A DNA stretch of 49,455 nt, taken from positions 1 to 49,455 of the forward strand of contig WFTQ01000081.1 in NCBI GenBank assembly GCA_015485355.1, given 5' to 3'. Shown here one piece after another: positions 11,125 through 19,099 of this stretch. Numbering within the stretch: the stretch's first letter is position 1; each line of letters starts with the position of its first letter. Position numbers and translations under genes: made by a program. The notes under the pieces were generated by a model, which saw only the letters and a program-made list of their open reading frames with translations, was not told where the DNA came from and did no database searches. Source of the DNA: a bacterium. Lineage in GTDB: Bacteria; Calditrichota; Calditrichia; RBG-13-44-9; J042.

Positions 11125-11673
11125 ATGGCAATCTTCGACTTCTTTAAGAAAAAAGACAAAGAAGAATTGGATCCCCTGAAAGACTTGACCCTGGAAAAAC
11201 TGCGAATCGGCTATCTGGTGGATTATGATATGAAGACCTGGGAGGTCACCGCCCATCATCGTTACGGCTTTGGGGGAGGGGATACCGTAGAAGAGTGGGA
11301 ATTGAGCGCGGGCCGCGAAACAGTCTATCTGGAAAAATCTCAGGATGACCAGGTGGAATGGACCATTTCTCGGAAAATCCCCTTGGGGGCTATTCAGGAA
11401 GATGTGCGGAATTACATCCTGGAGCACGATGATCCGCCTCATCAAATTACGTACAAAGGGAAGACGTACTATCTGGATGAATCCGGGGCGGGTTATTTTT
11501 ACGAGAATGGTCAGGAACCGGCTGTGGGATTCGTGTATTGGGATTTCATCGATGAAAACGACGAATACTTTGTTACCATCGAACAGTGGGGCGAGACGGA
11601 GTTCGAGGCCGTGTTTGGTCACTCGGTGGAACCGTATCAATTCAGCAACATTTTGCCCCGGGTCACACCTTGA
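11125..11673 (+). CDS. DUF4178 domain protein
   Basis: A 182-residue soluble protein, strand-rich and acidic, with no signal peptide. The N terminus is charged (FFKKKDKEELDPL), followed by a DUF4178-type region: LEKLRIGYLVDYDMKTWEV near 25-43, DTVEEWEL, ITYKGKTYYLDESGAGYF and YWDFIDENDEYFVTIEQWG. The biochemical function of DUF4178 is unknown. The family is repeatedly encoded beside DUF350 membrane proteins and spermidine synthase homologues, as here. It is the first gene of a same-strand run to 14964; the next start is 20 bases after its stop. A GAGGGATGAG sequence serves as ribosome binding site. Confidence 0.8.
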   Translation: MAIFDFFKKKDKEELDPLKDLTLEKLRIGYLVDYDMKTWEVTAHHRYGFGGGDTVEEWELSAGRETVYLEKSQDDQVEWTISRKIPLGAIQEDVRNYILEHDDPPHQITYKGKTYYLDESGAGYFYENGQEPAVGFVYWDFIDENDEYFVTIEQWGETEFEAVFGHSVEPYQFSNILPRVTP

Positions 11674-11693
11674 ATCAAAAGAGGATGATGTCC

Positions 11694-12416
11694 ATGAATG
11701 CACGCTGGGGATGGGTCTTGCTGTTCGCGGGTCTGCTGCTGGCCTGTGCCGCCCGATTGTCTCCCCTGGAACGGTTGACACAGCAATATCAGCGCTATCC
11801 GCAGTATTCCATCATTCTGAATGACATGAAAGAAGAAGGCAATTTTTTCAAGAGCTACTACCATCAGTACAAAATCGTTTATGGAGCGCCTTTCCCGGAA
11901 AAACCGGACAGTTTGGCCTATTTTACCGAAATCACCGACTGGTTTCGAGTGGACCGGAAGACGTACGAGAAGTATTTCAACTTTTTGGGAATGGCTTTGA
12001 TCACCAAAACCCCCGATGGGCGGGTTATCGACGTCCAATTTCCCCCGGGGTATCAATATGTCGGTGATCCCCGTTACGGAACCTGGCGTACCGATGCCCA
12101 CGGCAACACGTTTTGGGAATTTTATGGCAAGTATATGTTCCTCAGTCAGATGTTTGGGATGTTTACGCGTCCCATTTACCGTTCCGAATGGGAGGATTAT
12201 CGCCGGTATACCCGCCGGGGACGGCCGTTTTTTGGGCGGGGGAATGAATACGGTACTTTCGGGAAAGTCACCCAAAAGACCTATCGTTCATTTTTCGAAC
12301 GGCAGCAGCTCAAACAGCAGCTGAAAAGGCAGCGCTTTGCGGAAAAGGTCAAGCAACGCATCCGCCGAAGTCGGATGAGCGGGTGGCGGAGTCGCAGTGG
12401 GGGATTCGGTAAATAA
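11694..12416 (+). CDS. lipoprotein of unknown function in the DUF350/aminopropyltransferase cassette
   Basis: A 240-residue protein. Residues 1-17 form a lipoprotein signal with the lipobox LLLACAAR. The middle is rich in Tyr, Phe and Trp (KSYYHQYKIVYG, YGTWRTDAHGNTFWEFYGKYMFL). The C-terminal third (about 165-240) is very basic and rich in Arg, Gln and Gly, ending in an SGWRSRSGGFGK-like tail. I do not recognise the family. Three nearby ATG codons exist (11685, 11688, 11694); 11694 sits best relative to AAAGAGG. Its place between DUF4178 and DUF350 genes suggests it is the extracytoplasmic member of the cassette. Confidence 0.7.
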   Translation: MNARWGWVLLFAGLLLACAARLSPLERLTQQYQRYPQYSIILNDMKEEGNFFKSYYHQYKIVYGAPFPEKPDSLAYFTEITDWFRVDRKTYEKYFNFLGMALITKTPDGRVIDVQFPPGYQYVGDPRYGTWRTDAHGNTFWEFYGKYMFLSQMFGMFTRPIYRSEWEDYRRYTRRGRPFFGRGNEYGTFGKVTQKTYRSFFERQQLKQQLKRQRFAEKVKQRIRRSRMSGWRSRSGGFGK

Positions 12417-12515
12417 TGCCCTCTGGTGCGGCTCGGGGCAACACCCACGGAGGAAGATGCCTCAATCCCGTTGAAAACCATTTGACTAAGCATTCATGAT
12501 TGTCGGGAGGATGGA

Positions 12516-13361
12516 ATGACTCTGGATCAAGTGGTGAGCGGTATCCTATATTTAATAGCGGTGTTTATTCTGTTTGTTATGGGAAAGTGGGTTTACGACA
12601 AAACCCATCCGGCTTTCCGAATCAAAGAAGAACTGGTCGAAAAAGACAACATGGCGCTGGCGGTGGACTTGATGGGGTATTACCTGGGCCTGGTTTTCGC
12701 CCTGGGCGGGATTCTGGAGGGCCCCTCCGTCGGCATCGTGGATGATCTATTGGACATTTTCTTCTTTGGCGCCGTTTCCATTCTTTTGTTGAACCTATCC
12801 ATGTTTATCAATAACAGGATGATTTTGCCGCGGTTCGATAATTACAAGGAGATGATTCAGGATCAGAATGTGGGTACCGGTGTGGTGCAGGCCGGAAATC
12901 ATATCGCTATCGGTTTGATCATATATGGGGCCGTATCGGGCCAGGGAGGGGATTTGATCACTGCGGCCGTGTTCTGGATATTGGGACAACTGGGGCTGAT
13001 TCTTGCGGCGAAGGTATATAATACGATCACCCCTTTCGATATCCACGATGCGATAGAAAAGGACAATGTGGCCGTGGGAGTGGCCTTTGCCGGGGTTCTG
13101 GTGGCGCTGGGCAACATCATCCGCTTGGGCACCATGGGCGACTTCTACTCCTGGCGGGTGAATTTAACCGGATACGGACAATATTACCTTTTTGGAATTG
13201 TCATGTTGCCGGTGGTGCGAATGGCCACAGACAAACTATTACTGCCCGGTGCCCGTTTAACCGATGAGGTTGTCCATCAACAGCACCCCAACGTTGGAGC
13301 AGGCATTCTGGAAGCGTTTTCTTATATCGCCGCGTCATGGCTGCTCGGGTGGATCGTTTAA
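12516..13361 (+). CDS. duplicated DUF350 integral membrane protein
   Basis: A 281-residue polytopic membrane protein with about eight hydrophobic segments. It contains two DUF350 units in tandem, and each unit is itself two-fold: related motifs occur four times, VEKDNMALAVDLMGY (41-55), IQDQNVGTGVVQAGNH (114-129), IEKDNVAVGVAFAG (180-193) and HPNVGAGILEAFSY (257-270). Each is a charged or polar turn followed by a small-residue helix. The family's function is unknown; the repeated architecture suggests a channel or a membrane-stress component. GGGAGG precedes the ATG. The aminopropyltransferase gene begins 13 bases after the stop, so coupling is likely. Confidence 0.85.
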   Translation: MTLDQVVSGILYLIAVFILFVMGKWVYDKTHPAFRIKEELVEKDNMALAVDLMGYYLGLVFALGGILEGPSVGIVDDLLDIFFFGAVSILLLNLSMFINNRMILPRFDNYKEMIQDQNVGTGVVQAGNHIAIGLIIYGAVSGQGGDLITAAVFWILGQLGLILAAKVYNTITPFDIHDAIEKDNVAVGVAFAGVLVALGNIIRLGTMGDFYSWRVNLTGYGQYYLFGIVMLPVVRMATDKLLLPGARLTDEVVHQQHPNVGAGILEAFSYIAASWLLGWIV

Positions 13362-13374
13362 ACGTCGGGTGCCA

Positions 13375-14964
13375 ATGGAGAGCAAATTGTCCATCCAGGT
13401 GAAAAAACCGTCCCCCACATGGAAAACCCGAAAGAATTTCCTTTTAAAGGCCTGTATTTTCGCCACGGGCCTTTCCGGTATTGTGGCCGAATATATCATG
13501 TCCACCCTGGCCAGCTATTTACTGGGTAACACCGTGTTGCAATGGACGTTGACCGTTTCTTTTATGTTATTTGCCATGGGGCTGGGCAGTCGATTGAGTC
13601 GCTTTATCCCCGATCCCTATTTGCTGGATGCCTTCGTCATCACAGAATTTATGCTTTCCATCCTCACCGCTTCCAGCGCAACCCTGACTTATCTGCTGTC
13701 CGCCTACGTCCAGGATATCTGGTTGTTCATCTATGCCATTGCCGTCACTATCGGTATTCTCATCGGGTTCGAAATTCCCCTGGCCACCCGACTGAACGAT
13801 TTTTTCGAGGAACTTCGGATCAATATCAGCACGGTGATGGAAAAGGATTACTACGGCGCCTTGCTGGGAGGATTGTTGTTCGCTTTTGTGGCCCTGCCTC
13901 ATCTCGGGTTGTCGTATACCCCCATCATTCTGGGAAGTGTGAACTTTTTAGTGGCCACGGCATTGTTCGTTCAATTCCGGCAACACCTGGTGCGTCGGAA
14001 AAGCCTTACGGCCGGGTTGGTGCTGGTGCCGGTTTTCATCGCACTGACAGCCGTTCTCGCCCAGCCCATCGTATTGTACGGAGAACAGCGCAAATATATG
14101 GATAAAATTATCTACAGCGAACAAACGCCTTACCAGCGGATTGTGATGACCCAGTGGAAAGCGTATTTCTGGCTGTATCTGGATGGAAACGAGCAATTCA
14201 GCACTTATGATGAAGAACGTTATCACGAACCCCTGGTGCACCCTGCTATGCAGACCACCGTATCGCACCGTCGGGTACTCATACTGGGAGGGGGAGATGG
14301 TCTGGCCCTTCGGGAAGTGTTGAAATATCCAGATGTGGAAAGCGTTACGTTGGTGGACATAGATCCGGCCGTGACCCGCCTGGCGGCTACCCATCCCATC
14401 CTGGTATCGATCAACCAGAATGCCCTGAATCATCCCAAAGTCCGGGTGATCAATCGTGATGCCTATGCGTACCTCCGGGACAGTAACCGATTGTACGATG
14501 TCATCATCATCGATTTACCCGATCCCAAGACGGTTCAGCTGGCGCGTTTGTATTCGGTGGAATTTTACCGCCTGTGCCGCCGTCAACTGGCCCGTGGGGG
14601 AACACTGGTTACCCAGGCCACCAGTCCTTTCTTTGCCCAAAAGGCCTTTTTGTCCATTTTGAAAACCGTCCGGGCCGCCGGGTTTACGGCCGTACCCTAT
14701 CGGAATCACATCCCTACTCTGGGGGAGTGGGGATGGGTGTTGGGGATCAATCGCACCGATCTTCCGGAAGAGGCGTTTCGGAAGCAACTTCAGCGGCTGG
14801 ACTTCTCCAACGTCCCCACCCGGTTTCTCAATCGCGAGGCGATGACGCGCATGTTATTGTTCGGAAAGAATGAACTTCAGGGACTGGATACCGTGGAAGT
14901 CACCAACCAGGTGGGATTAAAAGTATATCAATATTACCTGAAAGGAGACTGGGATTTATATTAG
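13375..14964 (+). CDS. membrane-anchored polyamine aminopropyltransferase (spermidine synthase-like)
   Basis: A 529-residue protein in two parts. Residues about 22-235 carry seven or so membrane helices. Residues about 240-529 form a spermidine synthase-type methyltransferase fold: YSEQTPYQRI (247-256), LDGNEQFSTYDEERYHEPL (269-287), GGGDG (305-309), VDIDP (327-331), and DLPDP (380-384) with the usual Asp. The soluble family transfers aminopropyl from decarboxylated S-adenosylmethionine to a diamine. No S-adenosylmethionine decarboxylase is encoded nearby, so the true donor and acceptor are open. ATG 13375 is chosen; a GTG at 13369 is possible. Neighbours are DUF350 and DUF4178, a recurrent association. 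Confidence 0.88.
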   Translation: MESKLSIQVKKPSPTWKTRKNFLLKACIFATGLSGIVAEYIMSTLASYLLGNTVLQWTLTVSFMLFAMGLGSRLSRFIPDPYLLDAFVITEFMLSILTASSATLTYLLSAYVQDIWLFIYAIAVTIGILIGFEIPLATRLNDFFEELRINISTVMEKDYYGALLGGLLFAFVALPHLGLSYTPIILGSVNFLVATALFVQFRQHLVRRKSLTAGLVLVPVFIALTAVLAQPIVLYGEQRKYMDKIIYSEQTPYQRIVMTQWKAYFWLYLDGNEQFSTYDEERYHEPLVHPAMQTTVSHRRVLILGGGDGLALREVLKYPDVESVTLVDIDPAVTRLAATHPILVSINQNALNHPKVRVINRDAYAYLRDSNRLYDVIIIDLPDPKTVQLARLYSVEFYRLCRRQLARGGTLVTQATSPFFAQKAFLSILKTVRAAGFTAVPYRNHIPTLGEWGWVLGINRTDLPEEAFRKQLQRLDFSNVPTRFLNREAMTRMLLFGKNELQGLDTVEVTNQVGLKVYQYYLKGDWDLY

Positions 14965-15276: not shown

Positions 15277-16395
15277 ATGGGTAAGACTTTTTTCATAATT
15301 GCCGGAGAGGCTTCCGGGGACCGACATGCGGCCGATCTGGTGCGGGCGATACAAGAGTTGCGGCCCGACTGCCGCTTTATCGGTATTGGGGGGGACTGCA
15401 TGCGCCAGGAGGGAGTGGAGTTGATCTACCCTATGTCCGATCTGGCCGTTCTGGGGATTGTGGAAATTTTTCGGCACCTGCCCACCCTCTATCGCATTCA
15501 AAACGATATTAAAAGGCGGCTTCAGAAGGCGATAGACGCGGTCATCCTGGTGGATTATCCGGGTTTCAATCTGCGAATTGCGCGAATGGCCGGCCGTATG
15601 GGCATACCGGTCATTTATTACATTTGTCCTCAGCTCTGGGCGTGGGGCCAAAAGCGGGTGGAAAAGATTCGCAAGTATGTCGATTTACCGCTGGTGATTT
15701 TTCAATTCGAGCAGGAATTTTTTGCGCGTTTTGGAATCCGGGCCCACTGGGTGGGACATCCTTTGGTGGATCAGCTCCGCCGTCTGCCTTCCGAGGCGGA
15801 GTTCCGTAAAAACTATGGGTTACCGACGGATAAGCCGCTGGTGGCCCTGTTGCCCGGTTCACGCCGTATGGAGGTAGAACGCCTATTGCCGGTGATGTGC
15901 GCCGCCATGCAGGATTTAACCCGCCCGTATGGTTTGCTCCCCGTCATCGGTAAGCCGGTCCACCTGGAAAATGAGTTATATCATCGTATCGTTGGGCGGC
16001 GGTACCCGATCCTTGAACGGGACATTGGTGCCTTAATGAAGTATGCGCATTTCGCCCTGGTAGCCAGTGGCACGGCGACGCTGGAGTTGGCATTTTTGCA
16101 AACGCCCATGGTGGTGCTCTATCGGGTGTCTCCGGTAACCTACTATATGGGACGATTGTTGATTAAGTTGAACACCATCGCCTTGGCCAATATTGTGGCC
16201 GGTCGACCCGTGGTGCCGGAACTGATTCAACATCGTTTGACCCCCGAGCGGGTCCGGCGGTATGCTCAACAATATCTGGATGATTCGGCCTATTATAACC
16301 GGGTGAAGGCGGGATTGGCACAAATTCCCGAGATTTTGGGTCCCCCGGGGGCGAGTCGCCGGGCGGCCCGACACATCGTCGAATTTTTACCGTGA
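15277..16395 (+). CDS. lpxB: lipid A disaccharide synthase
   Basis: A 372-residue GT19 enzyme that joins UDP-2,3-diacylglucosamine and lipid X to form the lipid A disaccharide on the inner face of the cytoplasmic membrane. The N-terminal signature GEASGDRHAADL (8-19) is present. Further family motifs are GIGGDCMRQEGVELIYPMSDLAV split around residues 37-60, YYICPQLWAWGQ (109-120), VGHPLVD, LLPGSRRMEVERLLP, and SGTATLELA (about 262-270). Length is normal. The AAGGAA site precedes the ATG. It is strong evidence for a lipopolysaccharide-bearing outer membrane. ccmA follows after about 100 bases of T-rich sequence. Confidence 0.96.
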   Translation: MGKTFFIIAGEASGDRHAADLVRAIQELRPDCRFIGIGGDCMRQEGVELIYPMSDLAVLGIVEIFRHLPTLYRIQNDIKRRLQKAIDAVILVDYPGFNLRIARMAGRMGIPVIYYICPQLWAWGQKRVEKIRKYVDLPLVIFQFEQEFFARFGIRAHWVGHPLVDQLRRLPSEAEFRKNYGLPTDKPLVALLPGSRRMEVERLLPVMCAAMQDLTRPYGLLPVIGKPVHLENELYHRIVGRRYPILERDIGALMKYAHFALVASGTATLELAFLQTPMVVLYRVSPVTYYMGRLLIKLNTIALANIVAGRPVVPELIQHRLTPERVRRYAQQYLDDSAYYNRVKAGLAQIPEILGPPGASRRAARHIVEFLP

Positions 16396-16496
16396 ACCCC
16401 TCCTCCGTTTCCACCGGCAGGCAAAATTTTTTTATGTTTTTTTTATTTTCCGATTTATTCCGTAATTTTCAACCTGAGACAAAGAAAGCCTGTTCA

Positions 16497-17120
16497 ATGA
16501 TACGGATCGAAGCCCGGGACCTGCAGAAGCAGTTTAATGACCGCCTGATTTTTTCCCACATCAACTTTACATTGCAATCGGGTGAATCGCTGGCCATTAC
16601 CGGTCCCAACGGTTCGGGAAAAACAACGCTGGTGCGGATCGTTTCGGGCTTACTTTCCCCCTCCGGAGGAGCAATTGTTTATCATATCGACGGCCGAACC
16701 TACCGCCCGGTGGAAGTGTACCCCTTGATCGGATTGGTGGGCCCCTATCTTCAATTGTATTTAAATCTGACCGCCTGGGAGAATCTGGTGTTCTTCAGTA
16801 AAATTCGTGGTCTAACCGTGGACAAATCGCGGCTCCGGCGGTTGATGGCCCATTTCGGACTGGCCGGTCGGGAACTGGACTTGCTCAAAACGTTTTCCTC
16901 CGGCATGCTGCAGCGGATGAAATATGTGGTAGCGTTGATTCACCAACCAGAGGTGTTACTGGTGGACGAACCCACCTCCAATCTGGACGAAGAAGGCAGT
17001 GAAACCGTCTATCAATTATTGGACGAACAACAGCAGAATAAAATCTTAATTGTGGCGACCAATGAACCCGAGGAAATACGGTTTGGAAGAAAGCGTGTGG
17101 ACGTTGCTGGTCAAGAGTAA
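16497..17120 (+). CDS. ccmA: haem exporter ATPase CcmA
   Basis: A 207-residue ABC ATPase, first gene of a cytochrome c maturation operon. With CcmB and CcmC it drives release of haem-loaded CcmE. Walker A is GPNGSGKT (36-43). The signature is the CcmA-style FSSGMLQR (133-140), and Walker B is VLLVDEP (153-159). The position usually held by the H-loop His reads ATNEPEE with Asn189, which may weaken or alter hydrolysis. The ATG at 16497 matches the start of homology; its ribosome binding site is poor (AAAGAAAG). The 3' end overlaps the start of ccmB. Confidence 0.9.
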   Translation: MIRIEARDLQKQFNDRLIFSHINFTLQSGESLAITGPNGSGKTTLVRIVSGLLSPSGGAIVYHIDGRTYRPVEVYPLIGLVGPYLQLYLNLTAWENLVFFSKIRGLTVDKSRLRRLMAHFGLAGRELDLLKTFSSGMLQRMKYVVALIHQPEVLLVDEPTSNLDEEGSETVYQLLDEQQQNKILIVATNEPEEIRFGRKRVDVAGQE

Positions 17121-17766
17121 CATCATTTTTCAGAAAGATTTTCATCTGGAGTTTCGCACCCGATATGCGATCAACGCCATCATTCTCTTTGCGGTGATCA
17201 GTTTAACCGCGGTGAGTTTTTCCGTGGGTCCTATTCAGCTGGAGCCCCCTATTCAATCCGCCATGCTGTGGGTAATTATCTTCTTTTCGGCCATGTCGGG
17301 ATTATCGCATATTTTTGTCCGGGAAGAGGAACAGCAGACCTCCGACACCTTACGTCTGGTCGCCCCCCCGACGGCAATTTTTCTGGGGAAATGGGGCTTC
17401 AATGTGGTTCTTCTTTTTTCGCTGGAAATCATTATCATTCCCTTATACATTGCCCTTTTGAACGTTGAGGTGCAGGGAATGAGCGCGTTTCTCTTGATCA
17501 TTGTTCTGGGTAGTGTGGGATTAGCCTCTATCGGTACCATCATGGCTGCCATTGTGGCACAGGCCAGCACCCGCGGGGCATTGTTTGCGGTGTTGAGTTT
17601 TCCTTTATCCATCCCGGTGCTGCGGTCGGCCATTCAGGGAACCTGGACGGCCATTCAGGGTGGGGGAGTGGCGCAGTGCCTGGCGGATATCCAGTTGTTA
17701 TTTTCGTTTACGGTGGTCATCTTAACCAGCTCGATTTTGCTGTTTGAATTTATCTGGAGGAAATAG
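17062..17766 (+). CDS. ccmB: haem exporter membrane subunit CcmB
   Basis: A polytopic membrane protein of 234 residues with about six helices and the CcmB-type opening KDFHLEFRTRYA. The stretch LSHIFVREEEQQTSDTLRL, with conserved acidic residues before the second helix region, is typical of CcmB. It is the membrane partner of CcmA. The start is uncertain: ATG 17062 overlaps ccmA by 59 bases and lacks a clear ribosome binding site. TTG 17083 or GTG 17095 (after GGAAGA) would give a length closer to the family's usual 220 or so. ccmC starts 2 bases after the stop. Confidence 0.88.
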   Translation: MNPRKYGLEESVWTLLVKSNIIFQKDFHLEFRTRYAINAIILFAVISLTAVSFSVGPIQLEPPIQSAMLWVIIFFSAMSGLSHIFVREEEQQTSDTLRLVAPPTAIFLGKWGFNVVLLFSLEIIIIPLYIALLNVEVQGMSAFLLIIVLGSVGLASIGTIMAAIVAQASTRGALFAVLSFPLSIPVLRSAIQGTWTAIQGGGVAQCLADIQLLFSFTVVILTSSILLFEFIWRK

Positions 17767-17768
17767 TC

Positions 17769-18428
17769 ATGAGACGCGATTGGTGGAAATGGTTTCTGGG
17801 CATCTGGATGACGCTGATGATTCTGGGTGCCTTTTTATATACGCCGGTGGCCAAAGGATTGGGCGAAACCACACGGGTACTCTATTTCCATGTACCCGCG
17901 GCCTGGGTAGCGACCCTTTCGTTTTTGATTTCGGCCGTCTACAGCATCCGCTATCTGCAAAAACAACAGATCCAATATGATGTCTGGGCGGCTTCCTCGG
18001 CGCAGATCGGTTTTATTTTTACCATCCTGGCCACTGTGACGGGATCGATCTGGGCGAAGGAAATCTGGCATTCGTACTGGAATTGGGATCCCCGGGAGAC
18101 GTCCATTTTTGTGCTGTTGCTGATCTACGCAGCCTATTTCGCCCTGCGTTCCGCCATCGAAGACACGAATCAGAAAGCGCGTCTGGCGGCGGTCTATTCG
18201 ATTCTGGCATTTGTTACGGTGCCCTTTCTGGTGTTTGTTATTCCCAGAATCTATGATTCCCTCCATCCGGATCCTCTGATTAATCCCGAAGTGAAGATTA
18301 AAATGGATCCCCGCATGTTGCGGGTGTTCCTGGGCTCGCTGTTCGGGTTTACCCTGCTGTTTTACTGGATGTTGCGCATCAAGACCGACATTGAATTCCT
18401 TAAGTTGAAGTTAACCAAACGGATGTAA
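17769..18428 (+). CDS. ccmC: haem-handling protein CcmC
   Basis: A 219-residue six-helix inner-membrane protein that presents haem to CcmE. The first haem-ligand His is in YFHVPAAW (His41), the Trp-rich WWD motif is IWAKEIWHSYWNWDPRET (94-111), and the second ligand His is in DSLHPDP (His166). Length and order match CcmC. A strong CTGGAGG site lies at the end of ccmB. The ccmD-like gene follows after 11 bases. Confidence 0.93.
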   Translation: MRRDWWKWFLGIWMTLMILGAFLYTPVAKGLGETTRVLYFHVPAAWVATLSFLISAVYSIRYLQKQQIQYDVWAASSAQIGFIFTILATVTGSIWAKEIWHSYWNWDPRETSIFVLLLIYAAYFALRSAIEDTNQKARLAAVYSILAFVTVPFLVFVIPRIYDSLHPDPLINPEVKIKMDPRMLRVFLGSLFGFTLLFYWMLRIKTDIEFLKLKLTKRM

Positions 18429-18439
18429 AGGAGAATGTT

Positions 18440-18637
18440 ATGGGGAACAGTGTAAGTCTGTACCTTCTCAGCGTTCTGGGCCTGCTCTTTCAGCCCGAAA
18501 CCAAAGAAGTGGGACAAAATATATACGTTGTTTTGGCGGTCACCCTGATTGTGTGGCTGGGAGTATTTTTTTTTCTGCTGTATCTGGACCGACAATTAAA
18601 GCAGGTAAAGGACAAAATCGACTGGGAGAATGAGTAA
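18440..18637 (+). CDS. CcmD-like small membrane protein
   Basis: A 65-residue protein with a single strong membrane helix (about 28-48), followed by a charged tail (LDRQLKQVKDKIDWENE). This is the form and position of CcmD, which stabilises the CcmABC-CcmE complex. An unusual extra is the first 24 residues, which are also hydrophobic. AAAGGAG precedes the ATG. The identity rests mainly on size and place between ccmC and ccmE. Confidence 0.7.
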   Translation: MGNSVSLYLLSVLGLLFQPETKEVGQNIYVVLAVTLIVWLGVFFFLLYLDRQLKQVKDKIDWENE

Positions 18638-18715
18638 GAAAAAAATTGCCTTTGGAAATCTCCCCGACGAGCGGCGTAAATATGTAAAAGGAAAAAAATG
18701 TAGGAGAGGTGGATC

Positions 18716-19099
18716 ATGCGTCCTAAATATATCATCGGTGTGGGAATCATTCTGGTATTCATCGCCTTCGCCGGTTTGAAATTAAAACAGTCGTTTACCC
18801 CTTACGTTTCCCTGCAGGAAGCCAAGCGGACCGGGGGCGTGGTGCAAGTTAAAGGTACCCGAATACCCGGTTCGGAAAAGTATGACTACCAGAAAAAAGT
18901 ATTCATTTTTGAGATGCAAGACACCAGCGGTGAAGTGTTCAAAGTCGTTTACCACGGCGTTAAGCCTTCCAACTTTGAACAGGCCATGGAGGTCGTTGCC
19001 ATCGGCGCCTATAAAAACGGCGTTTTCGAGGCCAATCAATTGTTAATCAAGTGCCCGTCCAAATATCAAGCGGAAGAATCGAAAGGGGTACAATCATGA
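18716..19099 (+). CDS. ccmE: haem chaperone CcmE, Cys-type
   Basis: A 127-residue periplasmic haem chaperone with an N-terminal anchor (about 5-22) and an OB-fold domain. In most bacteria haem is bound by His in an HxxxY motif. Here the site reads LIKCPSKYQ, so Cys113 and Tyr117 form CxxxY. This Cys-type CcmE is known from Desulfovibrio and archaea, where it accompanies Ccm systems without CcmH. An AGGAG site precedes the ATG. The stop overlaps the ccmF start by four bases (ATGA). Confidence 0.92.
   Translation: MRPKYIIGVGIILVFIAFAGLKLKQSFTPYVSLQEAKRTGGVVQVKGTRIPGSEKYDYQKKVFIFEMQDTSGEVFKVVYHGVKPSNFEQAMEVVAIGAYKNGVFEANQLLIKCPSKYQAEESKGVQS

Follow-up and report, generated by a model that had tools for sequence, protein, structure and literature searches.

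A membrane aminopropyltransferase cassette in Calditrichota, and the distribution of SpeD and DUF2617 among genomes that carry it

A four-gene cassette is found at positions 11125-14964, on the + strand, of contig WFTQ01000081.1 from a Calditrichota bacterium; the whole stretch of 49,455 nt is termed here the window. The genes encode a DUF4178 protein, a lipoprotein, a tandem DUF350 membrane protein and a polyamine aminopropyltransferase fused to a membrane domain. There is little doubt that they are the core genes of the 'membrane spermidine synthase' operon associated with PspA/CesT, a type found by comparative genomics and described as the 'second major group' of PspA-CesT/Tir operons with a membrane spermine synthase (Ravi et al., 2024; PMC11237479). 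This operon type has thus been in print since 2024, and the window cassette is not new as a set; the original prediction, made from the sequence alone, implied novelty, but the same four genes are listed by Ravi et al. The present analysis adds an intact catalytic pocket, a split gene arrangement, a wider distribution and a survey of donor synthesis. The mutual exclusion of the S-adenosylmethionine (AdoMet) decarboxylase SpeD and the DUF2617 family, which emerged from that survey, is a new lead.

The assignment is based on gene content. In the window, as in the operon of Ravi et al., a synthase domain is fused to an N-terminal domain of about seven transmembrane segments (7TM), and an 8TM YjfL/DUF350 protein, a lipoprotein and a DUF4178 protein are encoded in the same operon. 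By position and kind the lipoprotein appears to correspond to the Ctha_1186 type, although no Ctha_1186 sequence was compared. Two differences are seen: no RHH factor was identified at the window, and the CesT/Tir-PspA dyad is absent from the cassette operon. The dyad is nevertheless encoded in the genome (3.44 Mb assembly, 98.7% complete), on contig C44, with CesT at 1100-1489 and PspA at 386-1069; both score as the operon-type proteins do (E 4e-64 and 7e-103, respectively). The sister genome, G026, has the CesT-PspA pair and the cassette on a single contig, approximately 52 kb apart. The window locus is therefore a split member of the PspA/CesT operon, and incomplete as an operon.

When 84,980 species genomes were scanned once with the synthase as query, 73 further loci were found. 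These were picked by likeness to the window synthase, and the survey describes the subfamily of that synthase only. The cassette ranges over at least ten phyla, with loci in Calditrichota, KSB1, Acidobacteriota, Kapaibacteria, Neomarinimicrobiota, Binatota, Nitrospirota, Gemmatimonadota, Latescibacterota, Nitrospinota, Desulfobacterota and Bacteroidota. Gene order at the 73 loci was mapped with profiles of the window's four proteins, and the order lipoprotein-DUF350-synthase is kept in every locus where a contig spans all three genes. The association is not a chance one, since the synthase was the only query used to find the loci and yet the lipoprotein and DUF350 genes are directly upstream wherever the contig spans the region. 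The DUF4178 gene heads the operon or else lies immediately downstream in convergent orientation. The recurrence of the association in bacteria, which the original prediction had mentioned, is borne out.

Clustering of 74 neighbourhoods, together with Pfam scans, shows four recurrent partners: PspA (43 neighbourhoods), CesT_Tir_1 (40), an Ion_trans_2/RCK potassium channel (32) and a DnaJ-domain protein (17). DUF2617 is a neighbour in 12 Nitrospinota loci. Three of these go beyond the description by Ravi et al., where the potassium channel is given only for the third group and DnaJ is not mentioned; DUF2617 in Nitrospinota is the other addition. The channel and the DnaJ-domain protein recur within the operon (L024, 11535-13115; also L025, L027, L029 and L032). 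In three genomes from nearby orders (G028, G031 and G033) there is an eight-gene run, DUF4178-lipoprotein-DUF350-synthase-channel-DnaJ-CesT-PspA, and G032 has the same set interrupted by contig ends. Among 40 Calditrichota genomes, a strong CesT_Tir_1 match (E<1e-47) is present in all six that have DUF4178 vs three of the 34 that lack it. The other half of the operon is also seen standing alone, as CesT-PspA with no DUF4178 hit (G029, contig C400; G030, contig C93; G034, contig C6), with DnaJ added in two of the three.

The aminopropyltransferase is 529 amino acids (aa) in length (13375..14964, + strand); its open reading frame opens at 13264, and homologues favour a start near 13375. Hydropathy and conservation in 65 homologues delineate an N-terminal membrane domain with seven hydrophobic segments (13435..14067), and alignment and Foldseek place the catalytic domain at 14098..14961 (Pfam Spermine_synth, E 3.5e-41), in keeping with the proposal of a spermidine synthase domain fused to about seven helices. 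Over residues 13-527 the protein matches the equivalog model NF002956, 'polyamine aminopropyltransferase', with 589 bits against a curated cut-off of 472. In an alignment of 65 full-length relatives, every sequence has an intact catalytic pocket: Gln274, Tyr283, His284, Asp308 (of GGGDG; codon 14296-14298), Asp362, Asp380 and Asp383 (of DLPDP; codons 14512-14514 and 14521-14523) and Gln414 are invariant. The role of each of these residues is presumed to be that of its counterpart in known spermidine synthases. With the AlphaFold2 (AF2) model (predicted local distance difference test, pLDDT, 88.6), Foldseek ranks aminopropyltransferases best, Thermus SpeE 1uir first (E 3e-17).

Several known systems are close to the cassette. 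The PRK03612/NF002956 membrane polyamine aminopropyltransferases have the same fusion; Mycobacterium tuberculosis Rv2601 is probably of this kind. The triamine/agmatine aminopropyltransferase of Thermus thermophilus (1uir, 3anx) shares the catalytic fold and pocket residues at approximately 34% identity but, unlike the window enzyme, is soluble, with no membrane domain and no PspA linkage. The actinobacterial operon of the NF002956 type has a different lipoprotein partner and carries DUF4247/DUF2617 (PMC11237479). The third group of the same authors (E. coli yjf type, with DUF350, a DUF1190 lipoprotein, an ATP-grasp ligase and PspA) has DUF350, a lipoprotein, PspA/CesT and polyamine chemistry in common with the cassette, but an ATP-grasp ligase replaces the aminopropyltransferase and the DUF350 protein is unduplicated (4TM).

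The original prediction noted that a decarboxylase for the usual donor was missing. This does not hold for the genome, as a class-1 SpeD is encoded elsewhere (C3:20259-20579, E 5e-42). In addition, a soluble SpeE gene stands beside a ureohydrolase-like gene on contig C103 (L015, 8387-10091), a pair that suggests ordinary spermidine synthesis, perhaps by way of aminopropylagmatine. With SpeD and this pair, ordinary spermidine synthesis seems to be covered without the membrane enzyme. It had been proposed that the idea of a special cassette would fall if gene order were unconserved, or if the enzyme were an ordinary synthase with its decarboxylase supplied elsewhere; the order is conserved, the decarboxylase is indeed elsewhere, and an ordinary role is unlikely in view of the soluble SpeE and ureohydrolase-like pair.

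When donor synthesis was surveyed in 75 cassette genomes, a recognised AdoMet decarboxylase was found in 38, by PF02675 in 37 and by PF01536 in one, the latter profile having been run on 18 of the SpeD-less genomes only. The remaining 37 have no recognised enzyme. DUF2617 is present in 25 of these 37 and in none of the 38 (Fisher p 3.5e-11, a value that ignores shared ancestry), and a tuned DUF2617 profile finds the identical 25 genomes, which are distributed in Nitrospinota, Binatota and one acidobacterium. Among the points that favour a genuine exchange, the sole Binatota genome with SpeD (G096) has no DUF2617, and SpeD is missing from two controls that carry both Spermine_synth and DUF2617, the genomes of Corynebacterium glutamicum and Haloferax volcanii. 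Incompleteness of metagenome-assembled genomes was considered as the sole cause of the missing SpeD and was rejected, since the absence tracks lineage and PF02675 is lacking even in two single-contig Binatota chromosomes (G057 and G077). A search of plasmids for further DUF2617 found none. In a single-contig Binatota chromosome, DUF2617 is adjoined by a large protein whose start is Cas9-like (LGIDLGTNSLGW; L164, 7219-10488).

A second membrane aminopropyltransferase is present in several cassette genomes (L159, 5692-7976; L160, 6363-8173; L161, 6104-8631; L162, 6000-9237). It is adjoined by SpeD in L160 and L161 and by DUF2617 in L159, and an oxidoreductase-like gene follows in L159 and L162. 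In an acidobacterial genome DUF2617 is head-to-head with a second membrane synthase, and in Bacteroidota relatives it is SpeD that is found beside a second membrane synthase.

The occurrence of DUF2617 in 25 genomes and of a recognised decarboxylase in 38 of the 75, with no overlap, suggests that DUF2617 probably replaces SpeD, and a functional replacement is likely in some lineages. Conserved in DUF2617 are a GxSH motif, an E-x-x-T/A-C stretch about 18 residues on, and H-T/S-Y-P-E/N; these recall the ESH...D-x-FTC and HTWPE of SpeD. Ser42 and His43 (of GxSH) and His155 (of HTYP) are invariant. Comparison of the two families by hhalign gives a probability of 28-44% (P 2e-4 to 6e-4) in the HTYPE region only, vs 0.5% or less for unrelated controls, and in genome G092 the SpeD profile weakly matches the DUF2617 gene itself (E 2e-4). 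The AF2 model of DUF2617 (pLDDT 89) is nearly all strand. Against 350,542 solved chains its best Foldseek match is human AdoMet decarboxylase (E 0.022), and with T. maritima SpeD the Foldseek probability is 0.95; all hits nevertheless fall short of significance, and TM-scores do not exceed the range 0.25-0.36. A sequence search of the PDB with DUF2617 returned nothing useful, and no statement that DUF2617 replaces SpeD was found in the literature consulted. The profile and structural similarities, although weak, lie in the direction of AdoMet decarboxylase, and the two families are hypothesized to be homologous. That DUF2617 is an unrecognised AdoMet decarboxylase, a diverged relative of SpeD that replaces it as the source of donor for the membrane aminopropyltransferase, is a proposition we consider evenly balanced; it would apply to Nitrospinota, most Binatota, one or more acidobacteria and, judging from the controls, Corynebacterium and Haloferax.

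What might the cassette do? Ravi et al. propose that in such operons the membrane dynamics of PspA are coupled to the level of polyamines or to aminopropylation (PMC11237479), and the present results agree with this. The original prediction pointed to membrane-sited polyamine modification or envelope stress, and, given PspA and a CesT/Tir chaperone as partners in the operon, this stands as the likeliest area (PMC11237479). We tentatively favour, while rating the mechanism as a whole at somewhat under an even chance, a membrane-sited aminopropyltransferase that depends on decarboxylated S-adenosylmethionine (dcSAM) and makes a product that works in or on the envelope with PspA and the chaperone. 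The dcSAM would come from the SpeD-type decarboxylase of contig C3, and with it the membrane-anchored synthase domain would aminopropylate an amine at the inner membrane, which would give a polyamine or an aminopropylated amine where the membrane needs it. For the acceptor, the side of the membrane and the roles of the other three proteins we infer the following: the tandem DUF350 protein may handle or sense the synthase product, the lipoprotein may act on the far side of the inner membrane, and DUF4178 may be a cytosolic partner. PspA and the CesT-type chaperone, encoded here on the other contig, would act on the membrane itself.

Several points weigh against this mechanism. Basic residues in loops 2-3, 4-5 and 6-7 of the membrane domain (residues 73-76, 139-157 and 200-209) would, by the positive-inside rule, place the C-terminal domain of the synthase outside the cytoplasm, and an outside-facing catalytic domain would misfit a cytosolic donor. 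The AF2 model leaves the topology undecided, as it merges hydrophobic segments 5 and 6 into one long helix (147-200). In this genus PspA and CesT are away from the cassette, so the functional link rests on their co-occurrence in the genome, and three Calditrichota genomes carry CesT/PspA without a DUF4178 hit. It should also be pointed out that no experiment on any cassette member, and no tested function, was found in the literature consulted.

A possible, though rather doubtful, alternative is that the membrane enzyme aminopropylates a target at the membrane other than a free polyamine, such as the head group of a lipid or an amine on a protein. The soluble SpeE and adjacent ureohydrolase-like gene seem already to serve ordinary spermidine synthesis, the C-terminal Gly-Lys of the partner lipoprotein is invariant and its tail is rich in Arg, and 'aminopropylation of other substrates' is also raised in PMC11237479. 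But the residues that position small amines in known aminopropyltransferases (Tyr283, Asp380, Asp383 and Gln414) are invariant, the nearest solved relative is the Thermus triamine/agmatine enzyme, and no lipid or protein product is known. It is unlikely that the protein is just another spermidine synthase with an incidental membrane fusion and neighbours: the equivalog-level match would suit this, as would Binatota and Nitrospinota, which have no strongly scoring ordinary soluble SpeE and where the membrane synthase may be the only such enzyme, but the fixed order across phyla, the PspA/CesT linkage and the separate SpeE of the host genome argue otherwise.

Also to be weighed is a synthase-transporter, with a periplasmic catalytic domain and a seven-helix domain that moves donor or product across the membrane. 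The seven hydrophobic segments with their basic loops, and three glutamates of the membrane domain (Glu39, Glu91 and Glu133) that are invariant in the 65 homologues, would fit. We nevertheless find it quite improbable: the donor is made in the cytosol, the single AF2 helix for segments 5-6 would make the crossings even in number and keep the domain in the cytosol, and hydropathy alone is weak evidence. Lastly, a donor other than dcSAM, either S-adenosylmethionine or another compound, is very improbable and was dropped as a leading idea despite the 37 genomes without a recognised decarboxylase, because the donor-selecting Asp, expected to face the aminopropyl group, is invariant in the 65 sequences and most of those genomes have DUF2617.

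The remaining genes of the cassette were characterized at the sequence level. All four were found where predicted, tightly spaced, with gaps of 14, 99 and 13 nt. The DUF4178 protein (11125..11673, + strand; 182 aa; PF13785, E 6e-23) is predicted to be cytosolic; residues E57, W139, Q154, W155 and P178 are invariant in an alignment of 42 members, and a PDB sequence search gave nothing useful and no solved relative. The lipoprotein (11688..12416, + strand; 242 aa) has no Pfam or NCBIfam match in family scans. Its lipobox, LLLAC, contains Cys20 (codon 11745..11747), with Ala at +2; Cys20 and the terminal Gly241-Lys242 are invariant in 48 of 48 relatives. The predicted basic tail is evident, with 13 Lys/Arg vs one acidic residue within the final 36, and ends in RSRSGGFGK. 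On inspection, a relationship of this lipoprotein to DUF1190 is suspected.

The tandem DUF350 (YjfL-type) protein (12516..13361, + strand; 281 aa; E 1e-52 over the whole protein) has two PF03994 domains, at 12522-12935 and 12951-13352. The four-fold motif noticed earlier, E/Q-x-D/Q/H-N-like, recurs at residues 42, 114, 181 and 253 (EKDNMALAV, DQNVGTGV, EKDNVAVGV and QQHPNVGAG), and 42 members were aligned. An additional short DUF350-like match (half a domain, E 1e-8) is distant from the cassette, at C69:15635-15784. An Rfam scan of the window gave no match, and hence no evidence of a riboswitch, and counts of promoter and terminator patterns in the sequence are the same as chance. The genes 3' of the cassette (window 15277-19099) look like lpxB and a set for cytochrome c maturation (ccmA, B, C and E-like).

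The exclusion of SpeD and DUF2617 offers a concrete and testable role for a family that has no name. If this role is true, it would explain how the aminopropyltransferase donor is supplied in SpeD-less lineages, possibly including actinobacteria and haloarchaea. The product of the cassette, once known, would tell whether polyamines are made in place for the protection of the membrane.

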